Shown piece after piece: positions 21,121-44,503 of a DNA stretch of 64,000 bases. The notes beneath the pieces were generated by a model, which did no database searches, was not told the origin of the DNA, and saw only the letters and a program-made list of their open reading frames with translations. How positions within the stretch are numbered: the first letter of the stretch is position 1; every line of letters starts with the position of its first letter. Location of the stretch: NCBI RefSeq assembly GCF_000317065.1, contig NC_019701.1:4350001-4414000 (forward strand), read 5' to 3'. Source of the stretch: Pseudanabaena sp. PCC 7367 (GTDB lineage: Bacteria > Cyanobacteriota > Cyanobacteriia > Pseudanabaenales > Pseudanabaenaceae). The position numbers and the translations under genes are program-made.

Positions 21121-21522
21121 ATGGATGAGCTGTGGTCTTTTGTAGGCAAGAAACGAGTCAAGGTTTGGGTTTGGTTAGCTATAGATGTTAATACTAAGGA
21201 GATCGTAGGAGTGTATATCGGTTCTAGAGATGAGGTTGGTGCTCAAGGATTATGGCAGTCTTTACCACCCGTTTATCGACAATGTGCGGTTTGTTACACT
21301 GATTTCTGGCGTGCCTATGCTCAGGTAGTTCCGAGTATGCGTCATCAACCAGTGGACAAAGGTTCAGGCTTGACAAACAAAATTGAGCGATTTAATTGCA
21401 CTCTTAGGCAAAGAGCTTCAAGACTGGTTCGCAAATCTCTTTCTTTCTCGAAAAAGTTAGCTAACCATGTTGGCGCTATCTGGTTATTTGTGCATCATTA
21501 CAACTCATCCTTACTTGTATAG
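21121..21522 (+). CDS. IS1-family InsB-like catalytic domain (second frame)
   Basis: 133 residues from the first ATG, normally made as an extension of InsA by -1 frameshifting at the A8 run. Catalytic DDE residues are visible: Asp in MDELWSFVG, Asp in YTDFWRAY and Glu in NKIERFN, followed by the LRQRASRLVRKSLSFSK segment typical of IS1. No internal stop, so the element looks intact and may be active. Confidence 0.9.
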   Translation: MDELWSFVGKKRVKVWVWLAIDVNTKEIVGVYIGSRDEVGAQGLWQSLPPVYRQCAVCYTDFWRAYAQVVPSMRHQPVDKGSGLTNKIERFNCTLRQRASRLVRKSLSFSKKLANHVGAIWLFVHHYNSSLLV

Positions 21523-41955: not shown

Positions 41956-42651
41956 TTAATAACTGGTTTTTGAGAGTACCACAACACCAGCAACCTTAAT
42001 TTTAGCCTTGTTCAGGGCGGCGATCGCCGATCGAATCGTCGCTCCCGAAGTATAGATATCATCTAAAAGAAGCACCGAAAAGTTAGTTTGCGAATATAAG
42101 GATTGAAATTTGCGATCGACCATAAAGGCATTATTTAAATTCTCTTCTCGTTCTTGCCTGCTTTTGGTTTCAAACTGGGGCTTCGTGTTCTTAATTCGTT
42201 TCAATAGATGGGGAAGAACCCTTAAGCCAGTGCGATCGCCAAACCGACTAGCAATCAATTCTGCTTGATTAAACCCGCGCATTCTCAGCTTTTGGGGATG
42301 GAGCGGAATTGGCACAATATTTAAGCGAGGATTAGCAATAATTGATTTAGGAACGAGTTCCTGGGCTTGAGCCATCTTCTCACCCAAAAATCTGGCAATA
42401 TTTGGTTGTTGATTGAATTTGCAGATCGTAATTGCCCGTTTTAGCTGGCGATCGTATTGTCCCCAGGCAAATAAGGGAACTTGGTTTAATTCATGGCTAT
42501 GTCTTGAAGCGGGATAGCGACAGGCTTCGATCTGGCGATCGCAATCGATGCAAACAATATTTCTGGCCGATCGTCCGCATAGAGGACAGTTGGGCTGCAA
42601 GAAAAGATCCAAGAGGCCACGCCAGATTTGGGAAGGGTGAGGCGATCGCAT
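41956..42651 (-). CDS. comF: ComF-family phosphoribosyltransferase-like protein
   Basis: 231 residues. N-terminal zinc ribbon CPLCGR...CIDC (about 20-38) and C-terminal PRTase domain with the PRPP loop VLLLDDIYTSGATIRSA. ComF/GntX proteins are involved in DNA uptake during natural transformation; cyanobacterial ComF is also linked to phototaxis. It begins 14 bases after the end of the DUF3226 gene on the same strand, so transcription may be shared with the ATPase/TOPRIM pair. Confidence 0.9.
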   Translation of the reverse strand: MRSPHPSQIWRGLLDLFLQPNCPLCGRSARNIVCIDCDRQIEACRYPASRHSHELNQVPLFAWGQYDRQLKRAITICKFNQQPNIARFLGEKMAQAQELVPKSIIANPRLNIVPIPLHPQKLRMRGFNQAELIASRFGDRTGLRVLPHLLKRIKNTKPQFETKSRQEREENLNNAFMVDRKFQSLYSQTNFSVLLLDDIYTSGATIRSAIAALNKAKIKVAGVVVLSKTSY

Positions 42652-42665
42652 AGTCTGCTCCTTTC

Positions 42666-43421
42666 TTATTCCTGCACAATAGCTTCAGAAACGGTGAGCT
42701 CAAACAATTGGATTAGCCATTGCACAAAAGATGCTGCGATCGCTGAATCATGCATTAACACCCCAGCAGTTATTGATTGTCCCATTGGCATACCTGGCTT
42801 TCTCTGCCAAGCTAACCAAGTATGGATTAACGCTTTGGGGCGATGAGCGCTTGTATACTTGTTTAAACCATCTTGCTCTATTTCTGTCAAAATTTGCTCT
42901 GCTTTTGGCAATAAATAATCATCTTCTGGGATCATCTGCTTGGCAAAGTCTTCTAACATACCCATACCCTGATTATCTGGCATGATCCACACTCCTATTC
43001 TAGGAGCCAAAAACTTATCACTAGACGAAGCTATATATTCATGAATTAGTCCCTCTCTTGGTATATCTTCGGGTAAATTTGTATAACCTACTTTTGTTAA
43101 CCTGCCTTTTACCGATTGCCATCTAGCAGATACATCAATATCAGCATCTACAACTACACCAAGGGTTTTAAGATCTGGCGTTTTTGGCATGGACTCCAAT
43201 TCTTCTAGAAGTATTTCAACACCACGAGTCTTTGGAGCAGATTCTAAGTCCTCAAAAGATGCTTCAATACTATTCTTCTTAAAGCTTTCAGGTATCTTTA
43301 TCTCAAATCCTTTCGGCAATTTGCTTTGCTTGCATAAGGTTGCAATAACCCGTGCATCATTGTCTCCTTCAACGAGTAGGATTTTGGGTTCGTTACTATC
43401 TGATTGTTTAGGTCGAGCCAT
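42666..43421 (-). CDS. DUF3226 TOPRIM-like protein, partner of the AAA ATPase
   Basis: 251 residues. TOPRIM residues are visible: Glu18 in ILLVEGDND and Asp92-x-Asp94-x-Asp96 in VVVDADID, the metal-binding set of OLD nucleases, primases and topoisomerases. The segment between them carries a duplicated phrase (LESAPKT at 59-65, LESMPKT at 75-81), apparently a local duplication absent from the usual family length. The start ATG overlaps the ATPase stop as TAATG, indicating translational coupling. It probably forms the nuclease half of a two-protein ATPase/TOPRIM complex. Nuclease activity is inferred. Confidence 0.8.
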   Translation of the reverse strand: MARPKQSDSNEPKILLVEGDNDARVIATLCKQSKLPKGFEIKIPESFKKNSIEASFEDLESAPKTRGVEILLEELESMPKTPDLKTLGVVVDADIDVSARWQSVKGRLTKVGYTNLPEDIPREGLIHEYIASSSDKFLAPRIGVWIMPDNQGMGMLEDFAKQMIPEDDYLLPKAEQILTEIEQDGLNKYTSAHRPKALIHTWLAWQRKPGMPMGQSITAGVLMHDSAIAASFVQWLIQLFELTVSEAIVQE

Positions 43422-44503
43422 TAACGCACCTCGATCCCGTGATCTACAGCGATCGCTAATTCTCTGGCACTATATTCAACCGGTTGAGTACCATTATCGC
43501 GGCGCTCCATTCGTAGCAATCGCCCATAGGCAGGATCGCCAATTTCTTCTAGGGCTTCCTGAAATGCCGCCACACAATCCCAACTGTGGGTAGTAGCAAA
43601 TACCTGAATATTGAGTTCTTTAGCTACCTGCATGATCCAGCGCCACATATCGAGCTGAGCACCATGATATAAGCCTGTATCAATATCATCAACTAAGAGA
43701 AAACCGTTCTCTACGCTAACGGCATGGATCGCCAGGGTTAGGATTCGCTGTACGCCTTCGCCAAGGGTTCCGATCGGCACTTTCTGTCCTTTGAATAGAA
43801 CTGAAATACTGTTACTACTAGATGCGCTACTAAAGTGTATACCACTGATATCAGGTTCTAATATTTTAAGAGATTTAATGACTTTATCTTCTTTACTAGT
43901 AAGTCTTATGTCATCCCATAGCGAAGAAAGTTTTCCCAAGCTTAATCCCTTGGGTGAAATAAATAAACAACTTGCTTTTCTACTATAGGCTAATCTATTT
44001 CTGTAAGACGGAGCTTGCATTATTCCTTGATCATCAACATAAATACTCTCTCCTGTAGGAGGATAATGATTTGAAATAACAAGATAATAGAGGGCTCTAT
44101 TAATATCATCAGAGCTTAAATCAGTATCAAAGAGAGGTAACTGAGCTTGCTTTTGAAATTCACTTCTTAGAGCGACACTAAGGTTTAGAACGCTTTCTGA
44201 ACTAGATGACAATTCTACAAATTTATTACTTATGAAAGGTTCCCGACCATAGAAAATATTGGTGATATCATAAAACAAGCCCGACTTATCCCTGAAAGAG
44301 GCTGAACTTGCATATTCCTCACGCCTATCAAGCATATCCGTCATGTAATGAAGCCATCCTCCATTAGTTAACAAATAAATCGCTTCTAAGAAACAAGTCT
44401 TACCACTATTATTCTTACCCACGATCAAATTAACCCTGGCCAAGTCATCGATCTGGAAGTCCTGGAAACAGCGAAAATTTTTGATAGAGAGATCGTGCAG
44501 CAT
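43421..44503 (-). CDS. AAA15/OLD-type ABC-class ATPase
   Basis: 360 residues. N-terminal LSIKNFRCFQDF strand, Walker A GKNNSGKT (29-36), ABC-like signature LGEGVQRIL (247-255), Walker B FLLVDDID (268-275) and a switch His in TTHSWD (His306). The order is that of SMC/RecF/OLD-like ATPases. The position after the Walker B Asp is Asp273 rather than Glu, unusual for active members. The middle region (about 85-235) is A+T-rich and poor in HIP1. A perfect 12-bp palindrome lies 11 bases before the ATG. Coupled by TAATG to the TOPRIM gene. Confidence 0.85.
   Translation of the reverse strand: MLHDLSIKNFRCFQDFQIDDLARVNLIVGKNNSGKTCFLEAIYLLTNGGWLHYMTDMLDRREEYASSASFRDKSGLFYDITNIFYGREPFISNKFVELSSSSESVLNLSVALRSEFQKQAQLPLFDTDLSSDDINRALYYLVISNHYPPTGESIYVDDQGIMQAPSYRNRLAYSRKASCLFISPKGLSLGKLSSLWDDIRLTSKEDKVIKSLKILEPDISGIHFSSASSSNSISVLFKGQKVPIGTLGEGVQRILTLAIHAVSVENGFLLVDDIDTGLYHGAQLDMWRWIMQVAKELNIQVFATTHSWDCVAAFQEALEEIGDPAYGRLLRMERRDNGTQPVEYSARELAIAVDHGIEVR

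Follow-up and report, generated by a model that had tools for sequence, protein, structure and literature searches.

A DUF3226 gene pair of Pseudanabaena sp. PCC 7367 resembles an OLD nuclease divided between two genes and matches the candidate defence system PDC-M38

Two overlapping genes on the minus strand

The window analysed here is the whole stretch of 64,000 nucleotides from Pseudanabaena sp. PCC 7367 (NC_019701.1, positions 4,350,001 to 4,414,000). Two open reading frames lie on its minus strand exactly where the earlier note had placed them, the ATPase gene first and the DUF3226 gene second, and they overlap in TAATG (Table 1). At the junction (...ATC GAG GTG CGT TAATG GCT...), the A at 43421 is common to both genes. 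This overlap suggests translational coupling, as had been proposed. The fixed stoichiometry read from it does not follow, since in the two-gene PARIS system a hexamer of AriA goes with three AriB (PMC12409363).

Table 1. Features of the gene pair in the window, with their support
Feature	Position	Strand	Support
AAA_15/ABC-type (SMC-Rad50-head-like) ATPase, 360 aa; PADLOC PDC-M38A	43421..44503	-	Pfam, PADLOC, AF2 model
DUF3226 protein, 251 aa; OLD-type TOPRIM nuclease (predicted); PADLOC PDC-M38B	42666..43421	-	Pfam, PADLOC, AF2 model
TAATG stop-start overlap, 1 base	43419..43423	-	sequence; 1-base overlap in 38/83 pairs, 4-base in 10
Walker A GKNNSGKT (residues 29-36)	44396..44419	-	K35 in 49/49
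ABC signature-like GEGVQR (residues 248-253)	43745..43762	-	G248 and G250 invariant
Walker B LLVDD (residues 269-273), catalytic Glu to Asp (D273)	43685..43699	-	Glu in 48/49 aligned ATPases
Switch-His motif ATTHS (residues 303-307)	43583..43597	-	H306 in 49/49
Conserved ATPase C-terminus IEVR-stop (residues 357-360)	43424..43435	-	R360 in 49/49
TOPRIM E18...D22	43356..43370	-	both 58/58; cf. BpOLD E400/E404, Eco2 E374/D378
TOPRIM DxD, D92 and D94	43140..43148	-	58/58 and 57/58; cf. BpOLD D455/D457, Eco2 D460/D462
E157, first helix of the helical insert (helix 156-161)	42951..42953	-	58/58; cf. BpOLD E508, Eco2 E515
K196, candidate catalytic lysine (helix 191-204)	42834..42836	-	58/58; cf. BpOLD K562, Eco2 catalytic lysine

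The composition of the pair had been described as A+T-rich with few HIP1 sites. The first part holds: GC content is 0.40, at about the 3.5th percentile, whereas the window has 0.454. The second does not: the HIP1 octamer was not depleted in the pair (2 found vs 2.6 expected), and only its core CGATCG was low (3 vs 9.0 expected, Poisson 0.02). We therefore rejected HIP1 depletion as a sign of acquisition.

An ATPase with a predicted Rad50-like head

The upstream protein matched the Pfam families AAA_15 (E=1.2e-27, 98 bits) and AAA_21 (8.8e-15, 56 bits). In PADLOC it matched the PDC-M38A profile PDLC04611 at E=6.6e-79, with residues 1-360 aligned to positions 1-383 of 383, as well as the profiles of AbiLi (6.2e-59, full length) and AriA (1.1e-27). 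The AF2 model (pLDDT 89.5) showed an SMC/Rad50-type head, and its matches among PDB structures included PtuA (Z 18.5) and residues 2-371 of GajA (Z 17.3). An alignment of 49 ATPases confirmed the Walker A motif, the ABC-like signature and the switch His reported earlier.

Two further features had escaped the earlier note. One is the Asp at the end of Walker B (D273): across 133 scanned ATPases this position was Glu in 131 and Asp in only 2, so ATP hydrolysis may be slow in the window copy, and the protein may act mainly via ATP binding, as reported for GajA. The other is a near-invariant C-terminus, -E-[VI]-R-stop. Endings of the [IV]E[VI]R type were found in about 80 of 83 pairs, and 127 of 137 ATPase ORFs ended in Arg; because this terminus is nearly fixed while many junctions differ, the ending itself is probably under selection. 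At another position the window ATPase carries L236, where 45 of the 49 aligned proteins have Lys.

The DUF3226 protein is a predicted OLD-type TOPRIM nuclease

The downstream protein matched the Pfam family DUF3226 (E=2.7e-72, 243 bits) and, with residues 8-241, positions 9-219 of 220 of the PDC-M38B profile PDLC04624 (E=9e-65). Searches of PDB sequences with the single protein and with a profile gave no relative, and plain Foldseek of the model vs the PDB gave no match at E <= 0.001. The AlphaFold model, built with 58 aligned sequences, reached a pLDDT of 90.9, and we realigned the same Foldseek candidates (998 chains) to it with VIA-align, which brought the TOPRIMs to the head of the list. 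The top eight entries were all TOPRIM nucleases (OLD class 2, retron-Eco2 and PARIS AriB; Z 9.6 to 6.5) and covered most of the model, and unrelated folds appeared from Z 6.5 down. The best match was the C-terminal region of BpOLD (391-594), which aligned with model residues 9-243 at Z 9.6; a second OLD entry followed at 8.3, retron-Eco2 at 8.0 and PARIS AriB (8ux9_A) at 7.0, the last not decisive alone since a Z under 8 may reflect a common arrangement only. The TOPRIM assignment accordingly draws on the whole top of the list being one superfamily, with OLD at the two highest of these values. The order of elements in the model was also that of OLD, with four strands and then a helical insert ahead of the last helix. 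These results support the earlier proposal that the second protein has a TOPRIM fold of the OLD/PARIS type; the lack of such a fold, which the earlier note had named as refuting its reading, was not what the model showed.

Invariant or nearly invariant residues of the DUF3226 alignment could be mapped onto BpOLD and Eco2 by order, rough spacing, topology and alignment rather than by superposed coordinates (Table 1). The BpOLD counterparts are active-site residues, together with T506 (PMC6755086), for which the DUF3226 alignment showed no conserved counterpart; substitutions of the Eco2 counterparts, the lysine included, abolish defence (PMC12405507). Judged from the alignment, E18, D22, D92, D94, E157 and K196 would thus recreate the two-metal-plus-lysine set of OLD and Eco2. 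The residues named in the earlier note, Glu18 and a DxDxD at 92-96, were correct for E18, D92 and D94, but D96 is Asp in just 34 of 58 sequences and falls outside the conserved set.

The two genes are inherited and transferred as one unit

To follow the pair beyond the window we used 84 loci found by profile. They come from two collections, with 80 loci in named genomes of many phyla and four on viral contigs. The ATPase gene was directly upstream of the DUF3226 gene and in the same direction in 83 of them, a linkage far in excess of chance. The distance matrices of the two proteins correlated at r 0.78, vs at most 0.12 in 500 permutations.

DUF3226 was found on ten plasmid records, among them a 6.4-kb ColE10 plasmid of Citrobacter and Acinetobacter plasmids of 9.7-40 kb, several of the latter with BrnT/BrnA adjoining. 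On a 4.07-kb ColRNAI plasmid of Klebsiella the ATPase gene was annotated, with a partial DUF3226 match at the edge of the record, and in Plesiomonas the pair lay on a replicon near P2-like tail genes. Phage records gave no DUF3226 match. Among IMG/VR contigs, a scan with the single protein gave none and the profile scan gave four, on which the pair was near an integrase (one), a filamentous-phage Zot gene (one) or tail genes (two); in one of the tail-gene contigs it sat between the tail genes and a BsuBI/PstI-type restriction-modification gene about 1.1 kb away. Transfer of the two genes alone was seen between Parabacteroides distasonis and yak-gut Bacteroidales bins, which shared 93% DNA identity over about 2.1 kb holding only the pair, with unrelated flanks; the two yak bins agree at 99.9% over 8.4 kb and may stem from a single source. 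These results show that the two genes are inherited as a single unit that moves between replicons and genomes.

Presence was patchy. Of 39 relatives, 16 had DUF3226; the phylum gave 59 of 292 genomes and the class 67 of 291, which amounts to 20-23% of cyanobacterial genomes. Copies numbered 1-5, and some of them were broken by stops. The conserved single copy in all relatives that the earlier note had set against its own reading was therefore not what we found. The window genome holds one DUF3226 copy and no second full-length relative of the ATPase. By blastn DUF3226 was absent from E. coli genomes. Taken together, plasmid and prophage carriage, patchy presence and the shared 2.1-kb segment fit a mobile defence module, and the carriage itself supports a role that is either defensive or selfish.

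In the tree, the window pair was on a long branch (1.15) within a clade of Cyanobacteria and Chloroflexota, where it grouped with a Chloroflexota bin (88% support), and a recent acquisition from a distant phylum was rejected on this placement. In seven related cyanobacterial genomes (loci L149-L153, L156 and L157) the pair had an ORF of exactly 2643 bp (880 aa) close by, which points to vertical retention at a single site among these genomes' lineage. We also noticed a second DUF3226 subfamily (loci L018, L015, L019 and similar ones) with a longer N-terminal insert, ILPNN replacing MPNN, and its own divergent ATPase, which occurs alongside the main type in some genomes. A DUF3226 match was present in the archaeon Methanocaldococcus jannaschii as well, a control genome of the distribution searches.

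Genomic neighbourhood

In the window, the neighbours of the pair are housekeeping genes (comF, esterase, flavodiiron proteins, kinase), with comF, the esterase gene and a divergent membrane-protein gene immediately around it. The comF-like phosphoribosyltransferase gene (41956-42651) starts 14 bp past the DUF3226 stop on the same strand, and one transcript may therefore cover the pair, comF and the esterase gene that follows. In the relatives checked comF was sited elsewhere than DUF3226, and an empty-site test found comF and the divergent membrane-protein gene not close together in these relatives, none of which is of the same genus; for this reason no insertion boundary can be drawn. No flanking repeats were conspicuous as a mark of insertion. 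In the ORF list of the window a single obvious remnant of a mobile element was seen, an IS1-type transposase-like ORF of 133 aa at 21121-21522.

Enrichment near known defence genes, a check proposed in the earlier note, was examined with PADLOC, the matches being aggregated per set and not by single locus. Around 20 cyanobacterial pairs we found genes of CRISPR type III, BREX, Shango, DISARM and Mokosh, but there was no enrichment, as 20 control stretches of the same contigs also had restriction, Csx1 and other matches. Around 20 pairs from other phyla there were about 8-11 specific defence matches among 174 neighbours vs 3 among 186 neighbours in controls (one-sided p 0.09-0.02), a count that varies with the profiles called noise (kinase PD-T4-6, UvrD, GlgB and mads matches were treated as such). 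These neighbours included Thoeris ThsB, AbiEii, HEC-02, a DRT reverse transcriptase, AriA and several PDCs. Enrichment outside cyanobacteria is thus suggestive only.

Relation to known systems

The earlier note had suggested that the pair would be a distinct variant. In the sense of the catalogues it is not, for precisely this combination is listed in PADLOC-DB 2.0 as the candidate PDC-M38 (M38A + M38B), a two-gene unit of these two families from which we could find no difference; adjacency, which we assume to be part of the PADLOC system rule, is provided here by the 1-base overlap. By its profile matches, then, the pair is not new as a system and belongs to a candidate already catalogued. 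Most putative defence candidates of PADLOC are without experimental validation (PMC12988326), and among the papers that we searched none names PDC-M38 and none assays a DUF3226 pair against phage or for toxicity.

The other claim, that of a split OLD-like module, was supported: the pair corresponds to an OLD protein cut where its two domains join. The ATPase aligns with GajA 2-371 and the TOPRIM protein with BpOLD 391-594, so the two predicted folds stand in the order of the broad OLD nuclease family, an ABC-type ATPase and then TOPRIM, distributed over two genes. With class 2 OLD proteins and Gabija GajA the pair also has its catalytic residue pattern in common; it differs in being two genes rather than one fused polypeptide, and no GajB (UvrD-like) helicase gene adjoins it.

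PARIS (AriA + AriB, class 4 OLD) likewise has separate AAA_15 ATPase and TOPRIM genes with a similar TOPRIM fold. Its definition calls for AAA_15 at >= 32 bits or AAA_21 at >= 27 bits and for DUF4435 at >= 27 bits in the partner (PMC9122126). The window ATPase exceeds both ATPase thresholds; however, its partner is a DUF3226 protein with no DUF4435 match at E up to 1, structurally nearer class 2 OLD than AriB, and membership in PARIS was rejected. PARIS is further marked by its trigger, phage anti-restriction proteins, and by the tRNA cleavage that its TOPRIM carries out. AbiL (AbiLi + AbiLii/RloB), a two-gene system of an ATPase and an OLD_TOPRIM-like effector (PMC10440598), resembles the pair in the full-length AbiLi match of the ATPase, but was rejected too, as the DUF3226 protein had no AbiLii match at E up to 1. 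The ATPase fold is very similar to those of Septu PtuA and the retron Ec78 ATPase (Z about 18), but the partner of PtuA is an HNH nuclease (PtuB), not TOPRIM. The TOPRIM effector of retron-Eco2 shares the E/D+4/DxD/E/K set with the DUF3226 model, but forms one protein with a reverse transcriptase and is under the control of msDNA rather than of an ATPase (PMC12405507).

Proposed function and alternatives

We consider it likely that the pair is a two-gene OLD-type ATPase and TOPRIM nuclease module of PDC-M38 that works as an abortive-infection cassette, a toxin with a sensor. Its defence function is inferred by analogy with systems in which the same parts have been studied. Oligomers of the ATP-bound ATPase would bind the TOPRIM subunit and keep it inactive; a trigger made by the phage would alter the ATPase, and the nuclease, freed or activated, would cut RNA or tRNA (as AriB and Eco2 do) or DNA (as GajA does), so that growth stops before phage release. 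In PARIS, AriB stays bound to AriA, three copies per hexamer, until a phage protein sets it free (PMC12409363); the Eco2 TOPRIM is an RNase (PMC12405507), and in other two-gene AAA + TOPRIM_OLD pairs the partners act as neutraliser and toxin (PMC10440598). The listing of PDC-M38 as a defence candidate also speaks for this reading. Against it stand the housekeeping neighbours of the window pair and the lack of defence-gene enrichment in cyanobacteria. OLD architecture alone is no proof of defence either, for Cran1, of OLD class 5, acts in the cell cycle (PMC12796447).

The predicted structure and the signs of mobility define this candidate more sharply but do not turn it into a new system. DUF3226, an uncharacterised domain, gains a predicted fold, a set of likely catalytic residues and a role that can be tested, and PDC-M38 takes its place as a split OLD system alongside PARIS and AbiL. 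Since such pairs are spread over many phyla and carried by small plasmids and prophages, a working assay would reveal the role of a common cassette and whether OLD was split more than once.

The most serious alternative, which we nonetheless hold to be unlikely, is a selfish toxin-antitoxin or plasmid-addiction module, with the TOPRIM protein as toxin and the ATPase as neutraliser, kept because its loss is lethal and not for blocking phage. Carriage on very small plasmids and next to BrnT/BrnA would suit such a module, and two-gene AAA + TOPRIM_OLD pairs of Clostridium algidicarnis and Streptococcus agalactiae have been validated as neutraliser and toxin (PMC10440598). However, deletion of either gene is non-toxic in PARIS, the closest architecture (PMC9122126), broken copies of the pair are tolerated, and a place in a prophage beside restriction-modification suits defence better. 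The two roles are compatible and do not exclude each other.

Given its long branch and the Walker B change, the window copy itself may be altered or decaying. That it is degenerate outright, an old acquisition whose ATPase has lost its switching and which no longer functions, seems improbable: D273, so rare among the scanned ATPases, the branch length and L236 in place of Lys point that way, but neither frame is interrupted, the set of TOPRIM catalytic residues is complete, and the C-terminal IEVR is conserved, as is the junction. More improbable still is a RecF/Rad50/OLD-type nuclease with a housekeeping task in DNA repair or chromosome maintenance and no defence role, as a head like those of Rad50 and SMC, housekeeping neighbours in the window, retention near the 2643-bp ORF in several related genomes and the precedent of Cran1 are set against presence in only a minority of relatives and of the class, variable copy number with broken copies, plasmid and prophage carriage, and the Bacteroidales transfer in which only the two genes moved.

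A bolder reading, somewhat less likely than not, can be put forward tentatively. DUF3226 pairs would then represent a second, independent split of OLD, from a class 1/2-like lineage and not from class 3/PARIS, with a phage trigger and a nucleic-acid target of their own, and the window ATPase would serve as a clamp that binds ATP but hydrolyses it inefficiently.

Cyanobacteria also encode fused OLD proteins, each about 660 aa long (L185:503-2485, L186:1189-3171 and L187:768-2741). The start of their TOPRIM region weakly matches the DUF3226 profile, and on this similarity they may form a bridge between the split and fused forms.
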